Source: Rubrivirga marina
GTDB lineage: Bacteria > Bacteroidota > Rhodothermia > Rhodothermales > Rubricoccaceae
Assembly (NCBI RefSeq): GCF_002283365.1
Contig: NZ_MQWD01000001.1
Span: 191,948-255,947 of the forward strand
Length of the DNA: 64,000 nt
Direction of reading: 5' to 3'
Numbering within the stretch: the first letter of the stretch is position 1; every line of letters begins with the position of its first letter. The notes beneath the pieces were generated by a model. The model did no database searches and had not been told where the DNA came from. It worked only from the letters and a program-made list of their open reading frames with translations. A program made the translations under genes and the position numbers. Shown here in pieces: positions 7,797-32,704 of the stretch.

Positions 7797-8276
7797 GGCC
7801 TGTCGTCCACGCCGACACGACGGCCGGCGCCGTCCACGAGGCCACCCGAACCGACGCTATCCTCGGCACCCTCGACCAGCACGGGCTCTCGGCCGCCGAG
7901 CACTTGGCCGACGCGGACTACGTCAGCGCCGACCTCCTGGTGAGCGGCGTAGACCGCTACGGGGTCGGGCTCGTCGGGCCGCCGAGGGGGACGTGAACTG
8001 GCAGGCACGGACCGACGGCGGGTACACGACCGACCGCTTTCGCCTAGACTGGGGCCACGAGGTCGCGACGTGCCCCGGGGGCGAAGAGAGAGGGGCGTGG
8101 CGGACCTACACCGACCGAGGCCGGGGCGAGTATGGCGTCGTCGAGTTCGATCCCGCGGCCTGTCGGCCCCGTTCGGTTCGGGACCTCTGTGTCCAGTCGA
8201 AGCGGGGCGGCCGGACGCTTCGGCTCCACCCGGAGCGGGAGCAGGGCGCGCTGGAGAGGTCGCCGCCCCGACAGAT
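7797..8276 (+). pseudogene. IS1182-family transposase remnant, frameshifted
   Basis: Two consecutive frames carry the C-terminal half of an IS1182-type transposase. The first has DAILGTLDQHGLSAAEHLAD and ADYVSADLLV, ending near 7996. The second continues with NWQARTDGGYTTDRFRLDW, EVATCPGG, VEFDPAACRPRSVRDLC and TLRLHPEREQGALE. A frameshift near 7990 joins them. The N-terminal catalytic part and both inverted repeats are missing, so this is a dead fragment. Confidence 0.75.
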
Positions 8277-8316
8277 CTCGCTACTGCGGGATTTTACACG
8301 ATCCGGCTCACTACCC

Positions 8317-9465
8317 TTACACAGGCTCTGCAGTCTGGTGTACGGCGGCGCCAGCACCTTTCGTCTCCGACACGTCCACCGCGAACAGCGCCACCGGCCG
8401 CTCCTTCCCCCGGAGCACTTGGTCGCCGACCGGCCGGAGAGTCCACCCGTCCGTCTCCTCGAGCCGCGCCGCTAGCGCGTCGCCCACGAGGACGTCCTCG
8501 CCGAGCGGTTTGCAGAGGGCCTGGATACGGGCCGTCTGGTTGAGCACGTCGCCGGTGAACACGATCTCCTTCTTCAGGGCACCGATCTCGCCCGTCGTCA
8601 CGTCCCCTGTCTGGACCCCCGCCCGGAGGTCCGGCGCGACGCCGAACTCTCTCTCGAACCAGCCCGCCCGCGCCCGGAGCGCCGCCCGCATCGCGAGCGC
8701 GCACCGGACGCCGTTGGCGTCGCGGAGCCCGGCCTCCTCCGGCCACGACACGACGATCTCGTCGCCGATGTACTGGTACACCTCGCCCTCGTGCCGGACG
8801 ACCGCGTCGGCGAGGGCGTCGTAGTACGCCCGGAGGAACTCGAAGTACCGGGCGTGGCCCAGCCGCTCCGTGATGGCCGTCGAGGACTTCATGTCGGAGA
8901 AGAGGAACACGCGCCGCTCCCGCTTCGGCGTGTGGTACCGCCCCGTGAGGAAGTTGGTGAGGACGCGGGCGCCCAGGTGCTCGCTGATCTCGGCGTAGAA
9001 CAGCGAGACGACGAGGGACGCCGTGATCTGGACGCCCGTGCTCAGGCTCTCCATGCTGACCGCGAACGCCCCGAGGCGGTCCCAGACGCGGGCGTCGGCC
9101 AGCCCGGTCCCCATCTCCATCGCCGCTGCGATGGGGTAAAGGACGACCACGACGACGGTCAGGAACGCGACGTAGAACAGGGTCTTGCCGACCAGCTTGG
9201 CCCCGAGGCTCCTCGCGGCGAAGGCCCGGTTCAGGAACAGCAGTTCGACGACCCCGACGAGGCACCCGACAGCGAACGACGCCAGGCTGGCGAAGACGTA
9301 GATCCCGGCGTCGAGTTGGATGCCCTCGTGGGAGTCGGCCGAGAGGCTCCCGACCGCCGCGTAGTTCGAGACCGAGAACACGTGGTCCACCAGGAGCCAG
9401 ATCACCCCGAAGGGGGCGACGCGGCGGACCGTGCGCCGGGCGTTGGGGGAGAGTCGGGTGCTCAT
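8317..9465 (-). CDS. Membrane-anchored adenylate/guanylate cyclase
   Basis: A 382-residue protein with four predicted membrane segments in the first half (e.g. IYVFASLASFAVGCLVGV, LFYVAFLTVVVVVLY) and a class III nucleotide cyclase domain in the second. FLFSDMKSSTAITERLG carries the first metal-binding Asp, YQYIGDEIVVSW the second, and DVLNQTARIQ the Asn/Arg pair that stabilises the transition state. It should make cAMP or cGMP. It is the last gene of a minus-strand operon; its ATG overlaps the upstream stop (9462-9465). In-frame sequence upstream was excluded because it lies inside the previous gene and is Arg-rich. Confidence 0.88.
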   Translation of the reverse strand: MSTRLSPNARRTVRRVAPFGVIWLLVDHVFSVSNYAAVGSLSADSHEGIQLDAGIYVFASLASFAVGCLVGVVELLFLNRAFAARSLGAKLVGKTLFYVAFLTVVVVVLYPIAAAMEMGTGLADARVWDRLGAFAVSMESLSTGVQITASLVVSLFYAEISEHLGARVLTNFLTGRYHTPKRERRVFLFSDMKSSTAITERLGHARYFEFLRAYYDALADAVVRHEGEVYQYIGDEIVVSWPEEAGLRDANGVRCALAMRAALRARAGWFEREFGVAPDLRAGVQTGDVTTGEIGALKKEIVFTGDVLNQTARIQALCKPLGEDVLVGDALAARLEETDGWTLRPVGDQVLRGKERPVALFAVDVSETKGAGAAVHQTAEPV

Positions 9466-9791
9466 GTCACGTCGCCCGCCGAGGGCTGGCGTAGACGTCG
9501 GGGGCATCGCGCGGCGACGGCCAGCTCGAACACGCCCGCCCCCCAGGCCGCCCCCGCTGAGAAGCCGGTCAGCGCTTGCGCCAGAAGAAGGGCGGCGACG
9601 CCGACACTCCCGTGTGCGACCATCTCCCTCGCAGCGTCCTGGCAGCCCTGCCACCACGCCCCGACGGCGAGAGCGACGAGCACGCCGGTCACGACGACCA
9701 AGAACTCGGCCCCGAACCATCGCGCCCCGCGCCGCCAGCCCCCCCGCGAGCGGGGGGTGTCCAGGACGGGGGCGGCCGGGGTGTCGGACAC
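9462..9791 (-). CDS. Small membrane protein (DUF6090-like N-terminus)
   Basis: About 109 residues from the GTG at 9791. The frame is open back to 9914, so the start is uncertain. It has two hydrophobic segments. The first (FLVVVTGVLVALAVGAWWQ) is preceded by Arg-rich sequence and resembles the single-helix start of DUF6090-type proteins; the second is VGVAALLLAQALTGF. It lies between the histidine kinase and the cyclase and overlaps the cyclase start by four bases, so it is cotranscribed and may be an accessory of that signalling unit. The function is unknown. Confidence 0.6.
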   Translation of the reverse strand: MSDTPAAPVLDTPRSRGGWRRGARWFGAEFLVVVTGVLVALAVGAWWQGCQDAAREMVAHGSVGVAALLLAQALTGFSAGAAWGAGVFELAVAARCPRRLRQPSAGDVT

Positions 9792-21101: not shown

Positions 21102-21229
21102 GTAGAACAGCTGGCCGCTTAGCCGCCGGGGCTGGCGGCGCGGCGGGTGGACGAGCGAAGGTAGGCGCCGGCGCTCGGACGAGACGGGGACGCTGAAGCC
21201 CCCGGTCGGCCTACAGCGGCGGGTTCTGC
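21102..21229 (-). repeat. attC site of cassette 12
   Basis: Outer boxes gtagaac (21102-21108) and gttctgc (21223-21229). The inner arms ggccgcttagccgcc and ggcctacagcgg pair with each other across a variable centre. It lies directly after the 3' end of the lipoprotein gene on the minus strand. Confidence 0.85.
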
Positions 21230-21250
21230 CGCCCGCTTCCGTCGTGTCCT

Positions 21251-21799
21251 TCACTCGCTCCTGGACAGCTCGAACCGCTGGCGGTAGCAGACCCACCTCT
21301 CCTCGTGCTCCCCGTAGCGGACCACCACTTTCCCTCGGCTGAAGAGCTGCTCGCTGAGGAACGACTCTGGCCCGGTGGGAATGAGGGTGTACGTGACCAC
21401 GATGTGCCGGAAAGAGGAATCCCCTCCTGGGATGACGGCTCGGGCATCGACTCGACCGCCCACCACGCGGTAGTTCCCTCGTGAGACGATCGGGCCGTAG
21501 TCGTCCCGGGATGTGAGCGAAGTCCGCATGTCCTCGACGGACCGCGCCACGAAGAAGTCTCCGTCGGTAGAGAAGGCCATCGCACGGCCGTTTAGGGTTC
21601 CCTCCCCGTCCGTAACGCGGGGGTCCGTCCGGCCGCATGACTCGTTCCCACCGACCGCGACGTAGACGCCAACGTTCGAGAACGGGAGGGCAGACGCCAC
21701 GGAGGGTTCGGCGTGGAGCCGCCCGCTCGTACCCCGCCAAGCGCACCCGGCAGTGATAGCCGTCAGGAGGACAAAAACAGAGAGCGCGGGGCGGTTCAA
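21251..21799 (-). CDS. Cassette 12: lipoprotein, unknown function
   Basis: A 182-residue protein with a lipoprotein signal sequence: ALSVFVLLTAITAGCAW with lipobox TAGC at about residues 16-19. The mature part has a Cys-containing VGGNESCGRTDP region and a beta-rich C-terminus. No family is recognised. It fills its cassette (21108-21889) and its stop is 21 bp from the attC box. Base composition is a little lower in GC than the surrounding island. Confidence 0.72.
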   Translation of the reverse strand: MNRPALSVFVLLTAITAGCAWRGTSGRLHAEPSVASALPFSNVGVYVAVGGNESCGRTDPRVTDGEGTLNGRAMAFSTDGDFFVARSVEDMRTSLTSRDDYGPIVSRGNYRVVGGRVDARAVIPGGDSSFRHIVVTYTLIPTGPESFLSEQLFSRGKVVVRYGEHEERWVCYRQRFELSRSE

Positions 21800-21883
21800 C
21801 GGACGGGACGCGAGGGACTCGCTCCAGCATAGGTCGGTGCGGGAGCGGCCCTCTGGTGCAACCGAACTACAGGCGCCGGGGCG

Positions 21884-22009
21884 GCAGAACGATTGGCGAT
21901 TCAGCCGCCTGAGGCGGCGCGACGGTGATCCGAAGCTAGGAGCGGCGCCGACGCCAGCAACGGCCGAGAGCGCTGACGCCCCCGGTCGGCCTACAGCGGC
22001 GGGTTCTGC
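21884..22009 (-). repeat. attC site of cassette 11
   Basis: Outer boxes gcagaac (21884-21890) and gttctgc (22003-22009), with inner arms ggcgattcagccgcc and ggcctacagcggcgg. 126 bp. Confidence 0.82.
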
Positions 22010-22030
22010 GGCCGCCCCTCGGGCGAGCCC

Positions 22031-22207
22031 CTACGCCGTCGAAGCCGAGAAGCGACGGCGGTACACCTCATGGGCCGCCCAGCCCAGCATCAAGTAGTAG
22101 AACGAGAACTCGTAGGGCTCCCAGTTCTCAACGCCCCGGATCCCGATCGCCAGCGTTGCCACGACGAAACCGACCGTCGTGAGGAGGGCGAATGTGGCCT
22201 TCGACAT
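22031..22207 (-). CDS. Cassette 11: small membrane protein
   Basis: 58 residues from ATG 22207. Two hydrophobic stretches (ALLTTVGFVVATLAIGI and FSFYYLMLGWAAHEV) suggest two membrane helices. There are no known relatives by eye. It is the only open frame of sensible composition in this 397-bp cassette and it ends 22 bp before the attC. Confidence 0.6.
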   Translation of the reverse strand: MSKATFALLTTVGFVVATLAIGIRGVENWEPYEFSFYYLMLGWAAHEVYRRRFSASTA

Positions 22208-22451
22208 GGTGCACCTCGTGTCCGAATGAAGGGGAGCTACGGAATGGTAGGGAAGCAGTTGCACGCTTGGCGCACAGGCCGCAGAACAGGGGGCCACTAA
22301 GCCGCAAAGAGCCGGCGGCAAAGCGGTGGTACGGCGGCAGCATACGACGGCGCCGAGGAATCCGAGAGCGCTGATGCTCCTTGTCGGCCAGCAGCGGCGG
22401 GATCCTTCCAATCAGGAGACCATCCTTCGGATCCCACTCGCCGCCGCCGCC

Positions 22452-23543
22452 ATGACCTCCTTCACCGGCCTCGACCTCCACAAGCGCTCCGTCACCGCGA
22501 CCACGCTCGACGCCGAAGGCGTCGTCGTCGCGACGGCCAAGATGCCGTGCCGGCCCGACGCCCTCCGGGCCTACTTCGCCCAGCAGCCCGGGCACCACGC
22601 GGCGACCGTCGAGTGCACGACGGGCTGGTACTGGGTCCGCGACGCGCTCGCCGACCGGGCCGACGGCGGCCCCGAGGTCGACCTCACGCTCGCCCACGCC
22701 AAGGGCGTCAAGGCCATCGCCGCCGCGAAGGTCAAGACGGACGCCGCAGATGCGAGGACGCTGGCCCATCTTCTCCGGACCGACCTCCTGCCCGAGGCCC
22801 ACATGATCTCCGACGAGATGCGCCCGCTCCGCGACGTGCTCCGGACCCGGCTTCGCCTGGTCGAGCGCCGGGTGGCCGCCCAGAACTCGGTCGCCCGGCT
22901 CCTCGAGAAGCACAACGTCCGCGACGTGGCCGACCTCGACGCCTTCGGGAGGCTCCAGGCCGAGACCCACATCGAACAAGCGGAGCTCCTGCACCAGCAG
23001 ATCAAGCGGCTCGAGAAGCACCTCCGCATCCACCTCGTCCCCGATGCCGATGTCCAACGCCTGTTCCGCATCCCGGGCATCGGCCAGGCCGTCGCCTTCT
23101 CGATCCGCCTCGAGGTCGACGACGTCTCGCGCTTCGAGACCGACCGCCAGTTCTTCAGCTACTGCCGCCTCGTCCCGGGCGCCGACAACTCGGGCGACCG
23201 GGTCCGCCACAAGCGGTCCCGCGACGGGAACAGGTACCTCAAGCTCGCCTTCAGCCACGCCGCCGTCCGGGCGATCCAGTACTACCCGGAGGTCCGCGAC
23301 TGGTACAAGACGAAGCGGCGGCGGAAGCCGGAGGCGGTCGCCCGGGCGCTCGTGGCCAAGGAGATCGCCCGGGTCGTCTACCATGTCCTCCGCAAGCAGG
23401 AAGACTTCAACGGCCGGTTCAAGGGACGCCCCCTGAGCCGGCTGAAGAAGGAGCAATGGCCGCTCCTCGCAAGCCCGGCCGGTATAACTGGCGACGGCGA
23501 GCCCCAAGCTCGACCGCCCTCGGCGGGAATGGGAAGCGAGTAG
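22452..23543 (+). CDS. IS110-family transposase, copy A
   Basis: A 363-residue protein. The N-terminal DEDD domain begins FTGLDLHKRSVTATTLDAEG and continues with TVECTTGWYW. The C-terminal transposase-20 domain has RIPGIGQAVAFSIRLEV and CRLVPGADNSGDRVRHKRS, where the Ser is the likely nucleophile. Full length for the family. The start was chosen at ATG 22452, matching copy B. The two copies are clearly homologous but differ at many positions, so they are separate insertions rather than a recent copy-paste. Confidence 0.93.
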   Translation: MTSFTGLDLHKRSVTATTLDAEGVVVATAKMPCRPDALRAYFAQQPGHHAATVECTTGWYWVRDALADRADGGPEVDLTLAHAKGVKAIAAAKVKTDAADARTLAHLLRTDLLPEAHMISDEMRPLRDVLRTRLRLVERRVAAQNSVARLLEKHNVRDVADLDAFGRLQAETHIEQAELLHQQIKRLEKHLRIHLVPDADVQRLFRIPGIGQAVAFSIRLEVDDVSRFETDRQFFSYCRLVPGADNSGDRVRHKRSRDGNRYLKLAFSHAAVRAIQYYPEVRDWYKTKRRRKPEAVARALVAKEIARVVYHVLRKQEDFNGRFKGRPLSRLKKEQWPLLASPAGITGDGEPQARPPSAGMGSE

Positions 23544-23822
23544 CGGGCCGCCTCGGGGGCTCTCGCCCCGACGGCCCAAGCCGCCGACAGAGATCTGGGA
23601 CGCCGAGCCCCGACGCTCGGCCGTCGTCGTGACCGACGGCGAGAGCCCGAATGGGGGTGTGGCCCGCCAGCGCTTCGAGAAGCGACTGACGAGGACCCTC
23701 TCGATCTGACGACGCGGTGCCAAGGCTCCGAGAACCGAGCGCTCCTCAGACCGAGGGGCGCCGGGCGAGACTGGCCCTACCGCGCCGGAACCGCCCTACT
23801 TGACAAAGACCTGATTATGGGG
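23544..23822 (+). ncRNA. Putative bridge/seek RNA region of insertion sequence A
   Basis: Non-coding 3' flank of the transposase gene. Blocks shared with copy B despite diverged surroundings include gccgccgacagagatctggg, tgggggtgtggcccgcc, cgcggtgcc and ccctacttgaca. In IS1111-type members the guide RNA for target choice is known to lie on this side of the gene. Boundaries and guide loops were not resolved. Confidence 0.45.
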
Positions 23823-23839
23823 GTTCTACGGCGCTCCGG

Positions 23840-24043
23840 CTACGGCAGCCCCGCTCCCTCAATCTCCGCCAGCGCCGCTCGGAGGACGCGGACCGCCTTC
23901 GGCCCCACACCGTGCAGCGCAAGCAGGTCCGCGTCGGAGCGTGCTGCAACTTGGCTGAGCGTCGTGACCCCGGCGGCGGTCAGGGCACGGAGTGCAGGCT
24001 TGCCGACCTTGGCCGGGATCAACGTGTCGGAGCGTGGGCTCAT
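23840..24043 (-). CDS. Cassette 10: helix-hairpin-helix DNA-binding protein
   Basis: A 67-residue protein made of paired helix-hairpin-helix motifs: IPAKVGKPALRALTAAGVTT and LLALHGVGPKAVRVLRAAL. This resembles stand-alone RNA polymerase alpha-CTD-like or ComEA-like HhH proteins that bind DNA non-specifically. Insertion sequence A separates the gene from the rest of its attC, leaving only the outer box next to it, so this cassette can no longer be excised normally. Confidence 0.8.
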   Translation of the reverse strand: MSPRSDTLIPAKVGKPALRALTAAGVTTLSQVAARSDADLLALHGVGPKAVRVLRAALAEIEGAGLP

Positions 24044-24062
24044 GGAACGTAGTGAGAGCGCC

Positions 24063-24192
24063 GTAGAACAGATTGCGGCTCACCCGCGAAGGGCGACGGC
24101 CGCTGGCGGTGGTTCGGAGCGGAGGATACGCCGATGGCGGGACAGCGCGGGGACGCCAGAGCCCTTCGTCGGCGTGCAGCCGCGGGTTAGGC
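24063..24192 (-). repeat. attC site of cassette 9
   Basis: Outer boxes gtagaac (24063-24069) and gttaggc (24186-24192), with inner arms gcggctcacccgc and gtgcagccgcggg. 130 bp; the inner arms differ slightly from the common type but still pair. Confidence 0.8.
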
Positions 24193-24259
24193 AGCGAAGC
24201 GTCTCCGCCGGGTGTGTGCCAAGGCCCCACCTCTCCCTGGACGCGGCCACACCGTTCGC

Positions 24260-24877
24260 TCATTCGCCTTCTGCCGAAGAGACCGGACGATAGACACAGA
24301 TGAGAACGTCGGTCTTGGCCTGCGCCACCGACACGAGATCCAGGGGGCGGGCGCGCCCGTCGGATGGGAAGATCGTCTTCCCCCCACCCAGGAGGATCGG
24401 CTCGACCATCAGCCTGTACTCGTCCACCAGGTCGTTCTCTACGAGCTGCTGGGCCAGCGAGGCACTGCCCATCACTTGAATGGTGGCGTCGCCCCCCTTC
24501 GCCCGGAGCGAGCGGATGGAACCGATCGCGTCCGCGTCACCGCCGAGCACCTTCGTGTTGCCCCAGCGCGAGGCGGCCTCCTCCGCCGAGAGCGTGCGCG
24601 ACGCGACGTACTTCGGGATCTCGTTCATCATGTCGGCGAAGGGGTCCCCAGCCCGCGCTGGCCAGGCGTCGGCCATCACCTCCCAGGTGCGCCGCCCGAA
24701 CAGCAGCGCTTCGGTGCTCTGCATCGCGTCGCTGAGGGCGGCCCCCATCGACTCGGGATCGAAGAACGGCATCGACCAGCCGCCGTGCTCGAACCCCCCG
24801 TCAGGGTCTTCCCCTCTGCCACCGGGAGCTTGCACGACGCCGTCTAGGCTGATAAAGTCATTGAGCACGATGCGCAT
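24260..24877 (-). CDS. Cassette 9: RibD C-terminal/dihydrofolate-reductase-fold protein
   Basis: A 205-residue protein of the dihydrofolate reductase-like RibD C-terminal family: MRIVLNDFISLDGVVQAPGG at the start, then LLFGRRTWEVMADAW, TLSAEEAASRWGNTKVLGGD and VMGSASLAQQLVENDLVDEY. Members bind NADPH and reduce small substrates; the exact reaction is usually unknown. It is not one of the trimethoprim-resistance dfr cassettes of clinical integrons. It ends about 70 bp before its attC. Confidence 0.88.
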   Translation of the reverse strand: MRIVLNDFISLDGVVQAPGGRGEDPDGGFEHGGWSMPFFDPESMGAALSDAMQSTEALLFGRRTWEVMADAWPARAGDPFADMMNEIPKYVASRTLSAEEAASRWGNTKVLGGDADAIGSIRSLRAKGGDATIQVMGSASLAQQLVENDLVDEYRLMVEPILLGGGKTIFPSDGRARPLDLVSVAQAKTDVLICVYRPVSSAEGE

Positions 24878-24901
24878 TCAGCTTTGGGATGGGTGGTAGC
24901 T

Positions 24902-25030
24902 GCCTAACAGTTGACCGCTCAGCCGCAGCACGCTGACGACTGGCGGTGTGGACGAGGCAACGTAGACACCGCCGCTCGGACGCAGCAAGAACGCTCGCGC
25001 GTGCTGTCGGCCTGCAGCGGTGAGTTATAC
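24902..25030 (-). repeat. attC site of cassette 5, copy a
   Basis: Outer boxes gcctaac (24902-24908) and gttatac (25024-25030), with inner arms gaccgctcagccgc and ggcctgcagcggtg. From 24906 on it is identical to the attC at 28294-28422. Confidence 0.87.
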
Positions 25031-25409
25031 GGCAGCGAAGCAGCCTTACTTGCCGAGGAACTCCGCGTAGCTCTTGCGGACCCAGCTGATGTAAGCGGCA
25101 CACTCATCAGGAGTCCCATCCTGCACGCGGTCCCTAAACTGAGTAGTCCAATAGTCGCGGCAGAACGTGTCAGCATGGTCGAACCCAGTCTCAGGTCCGT
25201 ACTTATCGGCCTGCTCGACTGTGTTGTCCTGAGGTAGCCCGATCGCGTCAAGCACGAGATCAAGCAGGTTCACGTCGAAGTACGAGAAGTCGATGTCGGG
25301 GTGAAACTTGCCGACCTTGGCCCACTGCTGGTGATCAAGCTGCAGGAGCCTGATCAGCAGCGTCTCACTAGTCATCGGTTCGAGCATGGGGGTTGGGCTG
25401 CCGTATAAC
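24906..25409 (-). repeat. Duplicated cassette, copy a
   Basis: This 504-bp unit (one attC plus one gene) recurs unchanged, as far as I can compare, at 28298-28801. Identity starts and stops at the aac of the outer boxes, exactly where the integron recombinase cuts. Confidence 0.88.
25046..25387 (-). CDS. Cassette 5 (copy a): hypothetical soluble protein
   Basis: 113 residues from ATG 25387, or 109 from the in-frame ATG at 25375. It is acidic and rich in aromatic residues: KFHPDIDFSYFDVNLLDLVL, DTFCRDYWTTQFRDRV, YISWVRKSYAEFLGK. No membrane segment. I do not recognise the family. GC content and codon use are markedly lower than the island average, so the gene has a foreign origin. An identical copy lies at 28438-28779. 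Confidence 0.8.
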   Translation of the reverse strand: MLEPMTSETLLIRLLQLDHQQWAKVGKFHPDIDFSYFDVNLLDLVLDAIGLPQDNTVEQADKYGPETGFDHADTFCRDYWTTQFRDRVQDGTPDECAAYISWVRKSYAEFLGK

Positions 25410-25530
25410 AGCTGGCCGCTCAGCCGCCGGGGGCTGAGGGCACGAGGAGTGTGCGAGCGAATGTAGGCGCCGAATCGCACACGCGCGAGGACGCTGAAGC
25501 CCACGGTCGGCCTGCAGTGGCGGGTTCTAC
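25403..25530 (-). repeat. attC site of cassette 8
   Basis: Outer boxes gtataac (25403-25409) and gttctac (25524-25530), with inner arms ggccgctcagccgcc and ggcctgcagtggcgg. 128 bp. The left box is a hybrid with the downstream duplicated cassette, as expected after insertion. Confidence 0.87.
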
Positions 25531-25542
25531 CGCGCCCGCGCC

Positions 25543-25983
25543 CTAGCCCTCTCGGAGAGCTCCCAGCACCTTCTCGATCCGCCGCCGCCGGGTGTCGGCC
25601 GCCTTCGCCCCCTCGACCGAGAGGACGTGCCCCCGCTGTTTGCTGTAGGACAAGGCGTCGAACCGCTCGCGGGCAGCGGGGTCCTCGGCCATCGCGGCCG
25701 CGAGGTCGGATGGGACCTCGACCTCCCGCGGCGCCGTGTCGAGCGCCAGCGAGACCTCGACCTCGTCCCCCGCCTCGACCCCGGCCGCCTCGCGGTGCTC
25801 CGCGCTGACGGGGAGCATGTACTTGCCGCCCCGGGGAGCGATGGTGCTCCGGTACGAGTACCCGTTGAGGGTGACCCGAACGGGCGGTCGCTTGTGCGAG
25901 CCGAGCGCCTCGACGGCATCGGCCGGAACCTCGATTCCGGTCGCGGTCTTGCCGTGGAGTTCCAGACGTGCGGTGAAGGACAT
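25543..25983 (-). CDS. Cassette 8: DUF1905/YdeI-like protein
   Basis: 146 residues from ATG 25983. The N-terminal beta-rich DUF1905 domain (MSFTARLELHGKTATGIEVP, RVTLNGYSYRSTIAPRGG) is followed by a YdeI-type C-terminus: FDALSYSKQRGHVLSVEGAK, TRRRRIEKVLGAL. Such proteins occur as bacteriocin- or stress-protection factors of unclear mechanism. It ends 12 bp before its attC box. Confidence 0.85.
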   Translation of the reverse strand: MSFTARLELHGKTATGIEVPADAVEALGSHKRPPVRVTLNGYSYRSTIAPRGGKYMLPVSAEHREAAGVEAGDEVEVSLALDTAPREVEVPSDLAAAMAEDPAARERFDALSYSKQRGHVLSVEGAKAADTRRRRIEKVLGALREG

Positions 25984-26174
25984 AGAGGGTGTGTCAGCGC
26001 GGTAGAACAGAGGGCCGCTCAACCGCGAAGGGCTAAGGGCACGGAAGCGGAACTAAGCGAAAGTAGCGCCGACGTTCGGACGAGCCGAGAGCGCTGACGC
26101 CCTTCGTCGGCTTGCAGCGGCGGGATCATTCCAATCAGGCAGCCATCCCTGAGATCCCATCCGCCCCCGCCGCC

Positions 26175-27251
26175 ATGACGTACTTCACCGGCCTCGACCT
26201 CCACAAGCGGTCCGTCACCGCGACCACCCTCGACGCCGAGGGCGCCGTCGTCGCCACGGCCAAGGTGCCCTGCCGGGCCCCGGCGCTCCGGGCCTACTTC
26301 GCCCAGATCCCCGGCGACCACGCGGCCACCGTCGAGTGCACGACCGGCTGGTACTGGGTCAAGGACGCGATCTCCAGCGAGGTACACCTCCACCTCGCCC
26401 ATGCCAAGGGCGTCAAGGCGATCGCCGCCGCGAAGGTGAAGACGGACGCCGCAGATGCGAAGATGCTGGCCCATCTTCTGAGGACCGACCTGCTCCCCGA
26501 GGCCCACATGATCTCCGACGAGATGCGGCCCCTCCGCGACGTGCTCCGGACCCGGCTCCGGCTCGTCGAGCGGAGAGTCGCCGCGCAGAACTCGATCGCC
26601 CGCCTGCTGGAGAAGCACAACGTCCGGGACGTGGCCGACCTCGACGCCCTCGGCCAGCTCCAGGCCCAGTGCCACATCGAGCAGGCCGAGTCCTTGCATG
26701 CCCAGATCAAGCGGCTGGAGAAGGCGCTCCACCCCCACCTCGTCCCGGACGACGACGTGCAGCGCCTGCTCCGGGTCCCGGGGATCGGGAAGGCGGGCGC
26801 GTTCACGGTCCGACTGGAGGTCGATGACATCGCCCGCTTCCCCACCGAGCGCCAGTTCTTCAGCTACTGCCGGCTCGTGCCGGGGGCCGACAACTCCGGC
26901 GAGCGGGCCCGGCACAAGCGGAGCCGGGACGGGAATCGGTACCTGAAGCTGGCGTTCTCGCACGCGGCGGTCCGGGCCCTCCAGTACTACCCGGAGGTGA
27001 GGGCGTGGTACGGGACGAAGAAGCGGAAGAAGCCGGAGGCCGTCGCCCGCGCGCTCGTCGCCAAAGAGATGGCCCGGATCGTCTATCACGTCCTCCGCAA
27101 GCAAGAAGACTTCAACGGCCGGTTCAAAGGGAGACCTCTGAGCCGCGCCAAGAAGGAGCAATGGCCCCTACTCCCGAGCCCGGCCAGCATAACTGGCGCC
27201 GGCGAAGGCCCCGTCCTTCGACCGCCCTCGGCGGGAATGGGAGGGGAGTAG
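26175..27251 (+). CDS. IS110-family transposase, copy B
   Basis: A 358-residue homologue of the copy A transposase, with the same DEDD start (YFTGLDLHKRSVTATTLDAE) and C-terminal RVPGIGKAGAFTVRLEV and CRLVPGADNSGERARHKRS. It lacks five residues after WVKDAI compared with copy A. It seems intact and could act on both elements. Confidence 0.93.
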   Translation: MTYFTGLDLHKRSVTATTLDAEGAVVATAKVPCRAPALRAYFAQIPGDHAATVECTTGWYWVKDAISSEVHLHLAHAKGVKAIAAAKVKTDAADAKMLAHLLRTDLLPEAHMISDEMRPLRDVLRTRLRLVERRVAAQNSIARLLEKHNVRDVADLDALGQLQAQCHIEQAESLHAQIKRLEKALHPHLVPDDDVQRLLRVPGIGKAGAFTVRLEVDDIARFPTERQFFSYCRLVPGADNSGERARHKRSRDGNRYLKLAFSHAAVRALQYYPEVRAWYGTKKRKKPEAVARALVAKEMARIVYHVLRKQEDFNGRFKGRPLSRAKKEQWPLLPSPASITGAGEGPVLRPPSAGMGGE

Positions 27252-27488
27252 GCGTGCCGCCGACAGAGATCTGGGACGACGTGCTGAACGCGTCCGCTGT
27301 CGGAGACCGATAGCGAGAGCCCGTTTGGGGGTGTGGCCCGCCGGCGCTCCGCCGGTGGCAGCCCAGCCGATCTAGCAACGCGGTGCCGTAGCTCCAAAGA
27401 CCGAGCGCCCCGTCAGACGCGGGGTGCAGGAAGAGACTGTCCGTACCTCACCGAGAACGCCCTACTTGACATCTACCTGATTTTGGGG
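27252..27488 (+). ncRNA. Putative bridge/seek RNA region of insertion sequence B
   Basis: The 3' non-coding flank shares gccgccgacagagatctggg, tgggggtgtggcccgcc, cgcggtgcc and ccctacttgaca with copy A. Conservation without an open frame supports a structured RNA; ends and guide loops are not resolved. Confidence 0.45.
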
Positions 27489-27526
27489 GTTAGGCGGATC
27501 GTGGGGTAAGCGTTACCGAAGAATGC

Positions 27527-27789
27527 CTACGAGACAGTAAAACCGGACAGTAAAGTTCCAGTCCTTCCGCTGTTGCTAACAGTAACAGTCCGGGGGCCGG
27601 CAGAAGCTTTGACTTCCACGCTGAGGCGCGCAGAGATCTCCCCGTCGCCAACGACTGTAAAAGACTCTACACATACTCCCGTCCCGAATCCCACGTCAGT
27701 AGCGTTCGTGAACTGATCCCCGTAATCGTGACTGTGAGAGCATCGCCAGGCGCTGCCGTGTTGGGGGTGACTTTCTGTGGATATGGCAT
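27527..27789 (-). pseudogene. Cassette 7: IPT/TIG-like domain fragment with a frameshift
   Basis: The first frame from ATG 27789 reads MPYPQKVTPNTAAPGDALTV then TITG and stops after 40 residues. The second frame continues the same fold from QFTNATDVGFGTGVCVESFT to TVSNSGRTGTLLSGFTVS. The join falls in the four-C run at 27718-27721 (four G on the coding strand), so a single-base indel broke one immunoglobulin-like IPT/TIG domain. There is no signal sequence, so even the intact gene would be a single exported-type domain without export. Confidence 0.65.
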
Positions 27790-27823
27790 ATCGCAGGAAG
27801 GGTAGAGCGAGACGATCAGATCC

Positions 27824-27952
27824 GCCTAACAGACGGCCGCTCAGCCGCCGAGGGCGACGAGCGGTGAGGCGTGAATTGGCAGGAGGATACGCCACCCTAA
27901 ATGAAGTTGAGGACGTGGCCGCCCTCGGTCGGCCTGCAGCGGCGGGTTCGGC
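27824..27952 (-). repeat. attC site of cassette 6
   Basis: Outer boxes gcctaac (27824-27830) and gttcggc (27946-27952), with inner arms ggccgctcagccgcc and ggcctgcagcggcgg. 129 bp. Confidence 0.87.
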
Positions 27953-28293
27953 GGCGCACCACCCGACGGGCGAGGGCCCGATTCCCCGTCCTCCCGCCAG
28001 CGCCGAGACCGGAGCGCCGGCGATGCCGCGACCGCCGAGGGGGCGCGGCTGCCCGCGGCGGCGCCGGGCGACGGGCTCGACGCCAGCGACCGAGCGAGGC
28101 CCGGTGAGGAGCGGCGGGGCCCGGAGCGAGCGGAGCGCCGCAAACGGAGCGAGCGCCGAGCCCCGGCTTGCGGCGCGGGAGCGAGCGGGAGGGCCGCAGA
28201 GCGACGAGCGGGGCCGGACGCTGGCGACGGCCGCCAGCGGGACGGGCCGGCACCCGAGGCAGAGAGCGGGAAGCGTCCGGTTGGCACCGCGCC
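27953..28293 (-). other. Cassette 6: apparently non-coding, extremely GC-rich cassette
   Basis: About 340 bp between two attC sites with no credible gene. Open frames on both strands are Pro/Arg/Ala-rich shadows that run through the attC. The sequence has many gagcgagcg/gagcgccg-type purine-rich repeats and looks as if it could fold strongly. It shares gagcggggccggacg with cassette 2. Confidence 0.5.
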
Positions 28294-28422
28294 GCCGAAC
28301 AGTTGACCGCTCAGCCGCAGCACGCTGACGACTGGCGGTGTGGACGAGGCAACGTAGACACCGCCGCTCGGACGCAGCAAGAACGCTCGCGCGTGCTGTC
28401 GGCCTGCAGCGGTGAGTTATAC
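28294..28422 (-). repeat. attC site of cassette 5, copy b
   Basis: Outer boxes gccgaac (28294-28300) and gttatac (28416-28422). Same inner sequence as the copy at 24902-25030. Confidence 0.85.
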
Positions 28423-28801
28423 GGCAGCGAAGCAGCCTTACTTGCCGAGGAACTCCGCGTAGCTCTTGCGGACCCAGCTGATGTAAGCGGCACACTCATC
28501 AGGAGTCCCATCCTGCACGCGGTCCCTAAACTGAGTAGTCCAATAGTCGCGGCAGAACGTGTCAGCATGGTCGAACCCAGTCTCAGGTCCGTACTTATCG
28601 GCCTGCTCGACTGTGTTGTCCTGAGGTAGCCCGATCGCGTCAAGCACGAGATCAAGCAGGTTCACGTCGAAGTACGAGAAGTCGATGTCGGGGTGAAACT
28701 TGCCGACCTTGGCCCACTGCTGGTGATCAAGCTGCAGGAGCCTGATCAGCAGCGTCTCACTAGTCATCGGTTCGAGCATGGGGGTTGGGCTGCCGTATAA
28801 C
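28298..28801 (-). repeat. Duplicated cassette, copy b
   Basis: Second copy of the 504-bp unit at 24906-25409, displaced by 3392 bp. The neighbouring cassettes differ, so it was inserted or copied as a cassette, not as part of a larger duplication. Confidence 0.87.
28438..28779 (-). CDS. Cassette 5 (copy b): hypothetical soluble protein
   Basis: Identical in amino-acid sequence to the protein encoded at 25046-25387 (113 residues; alternative start four codons in). The second copy is intact, so the gene is present in double dose. It lies closer to attI than copy a and would be better expressed if a promoter near intI drives the array. Confidence 0.8.
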   Translation of the reverse strand: MLEPMTSETLLIRLLQLDHQQWAKVGKFHPDIDFSYFDVNLLDLVLDAIGLPQDNTVEQADKYGPETGFDHADTFCRDYWTTQFRDRVQDGTPDECAAYISWVRKSYAEFLGK

Positions 28802-28918
28802 AGTTGGCCGTTCAGCCGCCCGAGGCGGCACAACCCACAACAGAGCGATGGACGACGAGAACGCGGAGGGGACCGAGGACGCTGGCGCCGAGGGTCGGCC
28901 TGCGACGGCGGGTTCTCC
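28795..28918 (-). repeat. attC site of cassette 4
   Basis: Outer boxes gtataac (28795-28801) and gttctcc (28912-28918), with inner arms ggccgttcagccgcc and ggcctgcgacggcgg. 124 bp, the shortest of the array. Confidence 0.82.
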
Positions 28919-28997
28919 CGCCCCGGCGGGCGACCCGCTCCTCCTCGCCCGCCAGTTCATCCGGCGTGTCCAGATGGCGATGGCGGAGGAGGCCCTC

Positions 28998-29240
28998 TCA
29001 GTTGCTTCCGAGCGCCGCCTTGAGATGGGTGATGACGGTCTCTAGGACCGGCGACGCCTCGCCCGTCTGTTCCGCGAACACCTCGGCTACGGCCTCGGGC
29101 GTGATCCCGTGGACACGGGCCGCTTGGGCGTACGCGTCCTCAAGCACCCGCGTCGCGGCGAACGGGTCGCGCATGAGGAACGCCATGTACTGCTCCATCA
29201 CGGCGGCGTACTCGGAGAGGTGCCTCTGAGGGTCGGCCAT
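28998..29240 (-). CDS. Cassette 4: small helical protein, unknown
   Basis: 80 residues, all predicted helix: MADPQRHLSEYAAVMEQYM, ATRVLEDAYAQAARVHGITP, VLETVITHLKAALGSN. No membrane segment or signal peptide. The family is not recognised; the start at 29240 follows a pyrimidine-rich stretch. It shares its 940-bp cassette with a second small frame upstream. Confidence 0.65.
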   Translation of the reverse strand: MADPQRHLSEYAAVMEQYMAFLMRDPFAATRVLEDAYAQAARVHGITPEAVAEVFAEQTGEASPVLETVITHLKAALGSN

Positions 29241-29271
29241 GTCGGGGTGAGGGGAGGGCCGTTGGGCCCGT

Positions 29272-29320
29272 GTTCTTTTGGAGACTGAAACGGGGGCAGG
29301 GCTGAAAGCCCCACCCCCGG
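29272..29320 (-). terminator. Strong stem-loop between the two small genes of cassette 4
   Basis: gggggcagggct and agccccaccccc pair across a gaaa loop (29292-29318). Read on the minus strand, the hairpin follows the 38-residue frame and is followed by gtttcagtctcc, so it may end that transcript. The U-tract is weak. Confidence 0.4.
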
Positions 29321-29325
29321 CCCGC

Positions 29326-29442
29326 TCAGGTGAACAGGCGCTCGGCGATCTGAACGAGGCTCCACAGGCCAGAGGCCCAGAGGAGGAATCGTTCGACGCC
29401 TCGCGTCACCTTGTCACGGGACTTCGTCTGCTGATCGTCCAC
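29326..29442 (-). CDS. Cassette 4: possible 38-residue peptide
   Basis: A GTG-started frame. The N-terminus is charged (DDQQTKSRDKVTRGVERFLL) and an amphipathic or hydrophobic helix follows (WASGLWSLVQIAERLF). It ends a few bases before a strong hairpin. Its composition and the hairpin favour a real small gene, perhaps a toxin-like or membrane-active peptide, but no family is recognised. The 290 bp upstream (29443-29734) hold nothing I can name. Confidence 0.4.
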   Translation of the reverse strand: MDDQQTKSRDKVTRGVERFLLWASGLWSLVQIAERLFT

Positions 29443-29734
29443 GGGGGTCGAGTTCAGCGACGGAGCGCTCCGCCGGTGGAGGATCCGGTGGCGGATGTGG
29501 ATTTAACGTGGCCGGTATCTCACCACGGCGCCGTACTCGCACGTGCACGTGCTTTTGGGCGCTGGGCTACACCGTGCGCGGCTGTTGTCAGCCCCACGGC
29601 TCTGCGGGATGCCGCCCGCAGGGCTCACCCGTGGCATCGGGTGTCGTGCCCATTTGAGAGCGGGCCGGGGTTCCGGCCCAGGTTCGGCAGGAGAAAGAGC
29701 GGCCCCAAGGTAGTCGGTCGCGGGGGGAGGGGCG

Positions 29735-29862
29735 GAAGAACGAGGGGCCGCTTAGCCGCCGGAGGCGATGGCACGGCGGGTGGACGAGCGAAAGTAGGCG
29801 CCTTCGCCCGGACGAGCCAGGAACGCTGAGGCCCCCGGTCGGCCTACAGCGGCGGGTTGGGC
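29735..29862 (-). repeat. attC site of cassette 3
   Basis: Outer boxes gaagaac (29735-29741) and gttgggc (29856-29862), with inner arms ggccgcttagccgcc and ggcctacagcggcgg. 128 bp. Confidence 0.87.
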
Positions 29863-29871
29863 CGCCCGGGC

Positions 29872-30381
29872 TCAGCGCGGGTACACCATCTGGTTCCGCT
29901 CTGCATGGACCACGAACACCTCGTCTTCGAGTCGGCTCACCCACCGCTCCTCGCGCCCCTCCGGGACCCCGAAGACGACGAGGTCCTGACCCCGGTACAC
30001 GTTGACGACGTCGAGCCCGCCTTGGGCCGCGATGAGCGCCCGGACGTGCTCCTCGTCCGCCGCACGCCGGACTACGACCTCGACCCCGTCCCCCCGCCAC
30101 ACCCGCGCCGTGTCGACGAGCGGGTCGGCGGACAGCGCGGCGAGGTAGTCCTCGGGGGCGCCGGAGCGGACGACGGTCTGGACGAGGTACACCGGGGGGA
30201 ACGCGACCTGCTCGACCTCGATGCTGTGCTCGCGGGCGTACGCCTCAAGAAAGGCCGGCTCGACGTATCGGACCGAGGCAACGACCTCTCCGGGGATGAA
30301 CGGGTCGTCGGACTCGAAGGCGTCGCACCCAGCGAGGAGCGCCGGAGCGAGTAGGAGTGCGAGAGCGGGGACGGAGCGCAC
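29872..30381 (-). CDS. Cassette 3: lipoprotein, unknown function
   Basis: A 169-residue protein with a lipoprotein signal: ALALLLAPALLAGCDAF, lipobox LAGC near residue 18. The mature part has repeated alternating sheet/helix segments (VYLVQTVVRSG, VEVVVRRAADEEHVRALIAA) but no recognised domain. Its stop is nine bases from the attC box, a tight fit typical of cassettes. Confidence 0.75.
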   Translation of the reverse strand: MRSVPALALLLAPALLAGCDAFESDDPFIPGEVVASVRYVEPAFLEAYAREHSIEVEQVAFPPVYLVQTVVRSGAPEDYLAALSADPLVDTARVWRGDGVEVVVRRAADEEHVRALIAAQGGLDVVNVYRGQDLVVFGVPEGREERWVSRLEDEVFVVHAERNQMVYPR

Positions 30382-30464
30382 GGTGATCGGGCAGAGGTGA
30401 GCCGCAACGGTAGGTCGGACGACGAACCTTGTAAAGTGCCAAGCAGAGCGCCCAACGTGAGGCG

Positions 30465-30593
30465 GCCCAACAGGGGGCCGCTCAGCCGCCGAGGGCGACG
30501 AGCGAAACGGGACGGATCGGCAACAGGATACCCCGATGCCCCCGAAGTCGAGACCGCTTACGCCCTCGGTCGGCCTGCAGCGGCGGGTTCTGC
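30465..30593 (-). repeat. attC site of cassette 2
   Basis: Outer boxes gcccaac (30465-30471) and gttctgc (30587-30593), with inner arms ggccgctcagccgcc and ggcctgcagcggcgg. 129 bp. Confidence 0.87.
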
Positions 30594-30814
30594 CGCGCGC
30601 CCATGGCCCGAGACCGCTCGATGCCTCCCCCGCTCCGACCCGGACGGGGCACGACGCCCGGTGCTCGCGAGACGTCGGCGGCGCGGAGCGCGGCCGGTGC
30701 GGGGGGCCGCCAGCGGGTCGGGACGAGCTGAGGCCCGGCGAGCGTCGGCGCGAGCGGGGCCGGACGATAGCTGCGCAGACCGGGCACGCCGGCGACTGGC
30801 GAAGCGCGAGCGCG
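30594..30814 (-). other. Cassette 2: apparently non-coding cassette
   Basis: About 220 bp between attC sites. The only open frame, on the minus strand, is Pro/Arg-rich, runs through the attC and has no gene-like features. Like cassette 6 it is extremely GC-rich and contains gagcggggccggacg. It may carry a promoter, an RNA or nothing. Confidence 0.5.
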
Positions 30815-30944
30815 GCAGAACAGGGGGCCGCTTAGCCGCCCGGGGCGACGGGCGGAACGGGTCGACGTGGCAACGTAGACGCCGGCGCGCGGAGCGAAGC
30901 AACAGCGCTCACGCCCCGGGTCGGCCTACAGCGGCGGGTTCTAC
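30815..30944 (-). repeat. attC site of cassette 1
   Basis: Outer boxes gcagaac (30815-30821) and gttctac (30938-30944), with inner arms ggccgcttagccgccc and ggcctacagcggcgg. 130 bp. Confidence 0.87.
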
Positions 30945-30963
30945 CGCGCGGGGCTACAGCGCG

Positions 30964-31404
30964 CTACTGCTCCCACGGCGGCGTCTCCGTTCGGTCGCTG
31001 ACCCGGAAGCTCCCGTAGGCGCAGGTCCCCTGGGTCCCGTCCGGGGTGAACTCCGTCCCGAACCCGTGTGTGACGAACCCCTGGTACCCGTCGCTCACGT
31101 CGAGTCTCGCTTCGAGGATGCCCCGGCCTACCACGCACGCTTCAAGCGTGTATTGGCCGATCCCGAGCGCCTCGGCCTCGTACGTCCACGGGAGCGAGAC
31201 GTTGTCGAACCGGACCGTGTCGCCGGCGGCCGGGGCGACCCCAGGGGCGACGAACACTACGTCCGCCGTGGCCGCAGGGTTGTCGTGCTCGCCGGGGTAA
31301 GGGAGGACAGCGATGTCGACGTCGAAGGCCGTAGGGGGGGAGCCCGAATCGCAACCGGCGACGACGAGCAGGGCAGCGGAGAAGGTGAGGAGCGGTCGCA
31401 TCAA
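30964..31404 (-). CDS. Cassette 1: lipoprotein, unknown function
   Basis: A 146-residue protein with a lipoprotein signal: LTFSAALLVVAGCDSGS, lipobox VAGC. The mature part is beta-rich (FDVDIAVLPYPGEHDNPAAT, VRFDNVSLPWTYEAEALGIG) with two further Cys residues. No family is recognised. It is the first cassette after attI (boundary at 31475), the position normally best expressed and most recently acquired. Confidence 0.75.
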   Translation of the reverse strand: MMRPLLTFSAALLVVAGCDSGSPPTAFDVDIAVLPYPGEHDNPAATADVVFVAPGVAPAAGDTVRFDNVSLPWTYEAEALGIGQYTLEACVVGRGILEARLDVSDGYQGFVTHGFGTEFTPDGTQGTCAYGSFRVSDRTETPPWEQ

Positions 31405-31468
31405 TCAAGACTGAGGTAGGGTCCGGGCCCAACCCCTGGCTGCGCCTCCTATTGCAGGAGGGAGCGCG

Positions 31469-31606
31469 GTAGAACAGGTATTGGGCGTCGCGGGGCCGGA
31501 TAAAACCAGCGGGCCGCGACGGATAACGTGCGGAGGTTACGTACAAACCCCGTGGCGGTCTAGGGGATACGCCAGCCCCCCGTCTTTATCCGGCCCGACG
31601 ACGCGT
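31469..31606 (-). promoter_or_regulatory. attI region and intI/cassette promoter interval
   Basis: The first cassette begins at the box gtagaac (31469-31475). Between it and the intI ATG lie 131 bp without attC structure, which fits attI. A 12-bp inverted repeat, gggccggataaa at about 31492 and tttatccggccc at about 31589, with partial matches outside it, encloses the interval. It may be a binding site for IntI or a regulator. No LexA box is recognised. Confidence 0.6.
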
Positions 31607-32704
31607 ATGCAGAACACGACCCCATACAAGACCCCGACCGGGTCCGCCCCGACCGGGTCCGCCCCGACCGGGTCCGCCCCGACCGGGTCCGCCGTCGCGG
31701 AGCCCGGCCCCGGGCGGGACGGCCCTGGGCACGACGGCCGGCTCCTCGACGCCGTCCGCTCCGCCTGCCGCGTCCGGCACTACTCGGTCCGGACCGAGGC
31801 CGCCTACGCCTCGTGGGCCAAGCGCTTCTGCCTCTTCCACCGCGACGCCGACGGCCGGCCCCGTCACCCGTCCGACATGGGCGAGCCCGAGGTGGCCGCC
31901 TACCTCGGCCACCTCGCCGAACACCGGAACGTCGCGGCGTCGACCCAGAACCAGGCCCTCGCGGCCCTCCTCTTCCTCTACGGCGCCGTCCTCGGCCGGC
32001 CCCTCGAGGAGGTCGGCCCGTTCCCCCGGGCCAAGCGGCCGAGACGCCTGCCGGTCGTCCTCACGCGCTCGGAGGTCGCCGCCGTGCTCGGGCGGATGGA
32101 CGGGACGCCCCGGCTCGTCGGCGCGCTCCTCTACGGGTCCGGCCTGAGGCTCCTCGAGGCCCTCCGGCTCCGGGTCAAGGACGTCGGGCTCGCCGAGGGC
32201 CAGATCGTCGTGCGCGAGGGGAAGGGGGACAAGGACCGGGTGACCGTCCTCCCCGAGGCCGTCGTCCGGCCGCTGGCGGCCCAGCTCGACTACGTCCGCG
32301 CGCTCCACGAGAAGGACCTCGCCGGCGGCCACGGGTCGGTCTACCTCCCCTCGGCCCTCGCGCACAAGTACCCGTCGGCCGCGACCGAGACGGCGTGGCA
32401 GTACGTGTTCCCGGCCGGGCGGCTCTCGGCCGACCCCCGCTCGGGGGCCGTCCGGCGCCACCACCTCACCGAGAGCCCGGTCCAGAAGGCGGTCCGCCGA
32501 GCGGCGAAGGCGGCCGGCGTCGAGAAGCCGGTCTCGCCCCACGCGTTCCGGCACTCGTTCGCGACGCACATGCTCGAGCGGGGGGCCGACATCCGGACGG
32601 TCCAGGAGCTCCTGGGCCACAAGGACGTCCGGACGACGGAGGTCTACACGCACGTGCTGAACCGGGGCGTCCGCGGCGTCGTGAGCCCGCTCGACACGCT
32701 GTAG
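31607..32704 (+). CDS. intI: Integron integrase
   Basis: About 365 residues from ATG 31607. A tyrosine recombinase with Arg181 ([17 protein letters not shown]), HAFRH at 312-316, [15 protein letters not shown] and nucleophile Tyr347. The IntI-specific insert is present: [18 protein letters not shown] then [15 protein letters not shown]. The typical C-terminal [12 protein letters not shown] closes the protein. It recombines attC with attI. The N-terminus carries four tandem PTGSA repeats (15-bp DNA repeats at about 31629-31690), unusual for the family. The gene reads away from the cassettes, as in other integrons. Confidence 0.95.

Follow-up and report, generated by a model that had tools for sequence, protein, structure and literature searches.

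A gene cassette present twice in a chromosomal integron of Rubrivirga marina points to copying by the integron integrase

The window analyzed here, a 64,000-nucleotide stretch taken from a 4.7-Mb contig within the 4.98-Mb genome of Rubrivirga marina, contains an integron in which a cassette array adjoins an intact integrase gene (Table 1). The encoded protein is an integron-type tyrosine recombinase that scores 434 bits against TIGR02249 (cut-off 265) and matches the IntI4 structure 2A3V over its full length (E=1e-86), with the catalytic motifs kept. Cassette I1, which has 12-bp matched ends, joins the probable attI region at the AAC at 31473. Each of the 13 attC sites of the array lies on the minus strand, such that a one-orientation array stands beside intI, and the clearest cassette genes are directed away from the integrase gene. 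Two cassette bodies (30590-30818 and 27949-28297) are very G+C-rich and hold no convincing gene.

Table 1. Features of the integron in the window. Positions are counted from the first letter of the window; I numbers count cassettes from attI.
Feature	Position	Strand	Remarks
intI, integron integrase gene	31607..32704	+	365 aa, intact; divergent from cassettes
Probable attI region	31466..31600	.	Between array and intI; first cassette joins at AAC 31473-31475
Cassette array	21106..31472	-	13 attC sites; adjoins intI
Cassette I3	29739..30468	-	729/730 identical to C1:3004769-3005498 in second integron
Cassette copy B (I5, 5th from attI)	28298..28801	-	Exchange unit 28300-28800; identical to A; attC model 126.4 bits
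attC and R boxes, copy B	28291..28425	-	Covariance model match; -38.9 kcal/mol, z -2.8
113-aa ORF, copy B	28438..28779	-	Same DNA as in copy A; second match in genome
Cassettes I8, I7 and I6	25410..28297	-	All different; separate the two copies
Cassette copy A (I9, 9th from attI)	24906..25409	-	Exchange unit 24908-25408; 504/504 identity; attC model 126.1 bits
attC and R boxes, copy A	24899..25033	-	Covariance model match; ssDNA fold of window + strand, -37.5 kcal/mol, z -2.5
113-aa ORF, copy A (P0001)	25046..25387	-	No known family
Cassette I13	21106..21887	-	782/782 identical to C1:3005499-3006280 in second integron

A sequence-only reading of the window had described one cassette as present twice, the two 504-bp units matching over both attC and gene, starting and stopping at aac, and lying between different neighbors. 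Base-by-base comparison of the units bears out all three points, returning no differences. The maximal tract of identity spans 506 bp (24906-25411 = 28298-28803). On the left, the flanks read ...GCTGCCT before the AAC of copy A and ...CGCCGCCG before that of copy B, so that the first outside base already differs; on the right, ...TATAAC AG is followed by C at one copy and T at the other, and identity ends two bases beyond the unit. The AG common to both right flanks, which is found in most attC sites here, is shared because the following attC starts with AACAG in each case. One refinement concerns length: the 504 bp include the AAC twice, and the unit that IntI would exchange by cutting at AA^C is therefore 501 bp.

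In both copies, the attC is on the left and is followed on the right by the minus-strand gene, and the attC sites fold as single strands (z-scores -2.5 to -3.0), as befits a gene cassette. A whole-genome search found the 501-bp cassette only at these two places, all remaining matches corresponding to the attC alone (69-86% identity). The cassettes adjoining copy A and copy B are unlike on either side, which excludes a tandem duplication; copies that end at AA^C points between different neighbors are the pattern of an IntI-mediated duplication.

The bases of a cassette that lie past R'' are expected to pair with its own opposite end. As anticipated, copies A and B each have 13-bp matched ends (GTTATACGGCAGC) and so form R'-to-R' units with complementary R''/R' ends. 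Across the two arrays of this genome, 24 of 35 cassettes show an end match of at least 9 bp, versus 4.7% of pairs in a control for which the ends were taken from different cassettes, and the match declines past position 12. The matched ends thus provide independent support for the cassette borders. Cutting at AA^C is established for the bottom-strand R' boxes of attC (PMC2727003), and pairing of cassette ends extending to 9-11 nt has been described previously (PMC2727003); end matching beyond 7 bp was accordingly rejected as a novelty.

The gene within the duplicated cassette is an orphan. Its product found no match in Pfam or NCBIfam, and no relatives among 114 genomes of the order, genome_contigs or phage records; the sole match elsewhere (33% identity) is to a hypothetical protein encoded on a Bacillus plasmid, and a structure predicted from the single sequence was of poor quality (pLDDT 48). 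The G+C content of the gene is 56.7%, compared with about 73% in the flanking chromosome, which together with its orphan status suggests a foreign origin at some time. Orphan genes are frequent in integron cassettes.

A second integron lies on the same contig, 2.8 Mb away (about C1:3.003-3.024 Mb), and encodes a separate integrase that shares 57% identity with the first. Two cassettes of the window array, I13 and I3, recur there, adjacent to one another, whereas in the window they are widely separated. Both borders of the I3 match fall at recombination points, bar a few bases common to the next attC; the outer border of the I13 match likewise falls at a recombination point, and at its other end identity continues through the next attC to 22010. 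Three window cassettes thereby have a second, near-identical genomic copy. For the A/B pair alone, divergence is below about 0.6% (95%); across all three pairs, a single difference occurs in 2016 bases (upper 95% bound about 0.28%). This sharing of cassettes between integrons, overlooked in the sequence-only reading, is stronger support for movement than the duplicate itself.

Cassette I12 (21888-22284) and its counterpart II18 in the second integron (L017 8282-9018) have an identical 118-bp attC joined to unrelated bodies, both of which have matched ends of their own, and so resemble a hybrid cassette with its junction at or near R''. It is conceivable, if improbable, that in this lineage exchange by IntI also takes place at the R'' end of attC, letting genes trade attC sites; such exchange would, if real, bear on the origin of new cassettes. 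Homologous deletion via the conserved attC arm could also account for the I12/II18 data, and from this single case we claim no mechanism.

Three IS110/IS1111-type elements (22402-23822, 26125-27490 and L018 about 8109-9530) occupy the same position in three attC sites, between core and R'', and all have the same orientation. Two are 100% identical over 1419 bp and the third is 79% identical; one interrupts cassette I7. What may be a remnant of this type with an internal deletion occupies the equivalent position in a further attC (L018 3830-4205), and attC-like sites occur outside both integrons at C1:3498437-3499315, C1:3658290-3658419 and C1:1537749-1537878. The three elements resemble the IS1111-attC group, which includes ISKpn4 and ISPst6 and targets attC (PMC11187229); the two elements of the window array are likewise placed at one attC end, sharing position and orientation, but come from a different lineage. 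These elements take no part in the cassette duplication.

We consider it highly likely that the 501-bp unit is an ordinary cassette that was copied inside the chromosomal integron by IntI in a copy-and-paste manner. The exact R'-to-R' borders, the 13-bp matched ends, the intact IntI and the two cassettes shared between integrons together support IntI-mediated movement. In such a process, IntI would recognize attC through its folded bottom strand and cut R' at AA^C. The cassette would come free as a circle, with the sister copy surviving through replication; the freed circle could then re-insert at attI or at another attC. Because attI is usually preferred, copy A would have entered first, followed by I8 to I6, then by copy B, and last by I4 to I1, with copy B deriving from a freed copy and probably inserting at attI. 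One point counts on the other side: neither copy is first in the array, so any attI insertion of either was not the latest event. The earlier description of this movement as recent holds only in the sense of the A/B divergence bound. Its further proposal, that the integron is or lately was active, gains from the support for movement; present activity is a weaker proposition, since either of the genome's two integrases could have moved the cassette, or one of the copies could be an external capture.

The main rival account, which we regard as unlikely, is that the cassette arrived from other cells on two separate occasions, with IntI still performing the insertions. Double capture would leave the same pattern, cassettes do pass between cells by transfer, and the G+C content of the orphan gene, so far below that of the flanking chromosome, would suit an external source; however, no other holder of the cassette was found in the 114 genomes of the order, genome_contigs or the phage records, and with three cassettes doubled within one genome, internal copying is simpler than repeated capture. 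Less probable still is an assembly artefact in which a single copy was placed twice. Only AAC or AACAG (3-5 bp) is common to the junctions, too little for a false assembler overlap, and the contig keeps the identical 1419-bp IS copies apart; were the culture a mixture of cells differing in the position of the cassette, the two versions could collapse into one assembly path, but such a mixture would itself mean that the cassette had moved. The rRNA genes were dropped as a yardstick of assembly, as only one 16S copy was found in the genome.

Least probable of all is that homologous recombination or segmental duplication produced the second copy and that its neighbors were lost afterwards. Some attC pairs do contain stretches of about 40 bp that are 95% identical, so that crossing over at attCs is possible, yet both copies are bounded by AAC at either end, similarity between the attCs next to them is only about 70%, and the surroundings of the copies have nothing further in common; segmental duplication does not yield R'-exact borders with different neighbors. 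Copying of cassettes around the genome through the ordinary integron mechanism is by far the best explanation of these data.

Among relatives, a strong IntI match is present in 44 of the 114 genomes of the order, and their arrays contain attCs detected by the same model; exact duplicate cassettes were absent from 20 integron regions of these relatives, many of them short or cut by contig ends. We found no literature specific to integrons of this lineage. Duplicated cassettes have been documented before, both in chromosomal integrons and in experimental evolution, and the duplication described here is a new example of a known process. It shows cleanly, at the level of sequence, that cassettes move in a chromosomal integron of a little-studied lineage and that the two integrons of one chromosome hold cassettes in common. 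It also provides a natural setting for testing copy-and-paste movement of cassettes beyond the usual model species.

The sedentary chromosomal integrons of Vibrio likewise have an intI adjoining attC-ended cassettes, with repeats within one array (PMC1382264), and paralogous cassettes account for about 25% in the smaller Vibrio arrays (PMC1382264). Unlike those systems, the integron described here belongs to another lineage, has attCs of about 120-135 bp and a short array, and is one of two separate integrons with common cassettes. The closest experimental parallel is copy-and-paste of the aadB cassette by IntI1 (PMC8024014), in which the duplicate likewise came to lie with other cassettes in between; that case involved a plasmid, drug selection and comparison with an integrase mutant, whereas in Rubrivirga marina we infer the event from the genome itself.
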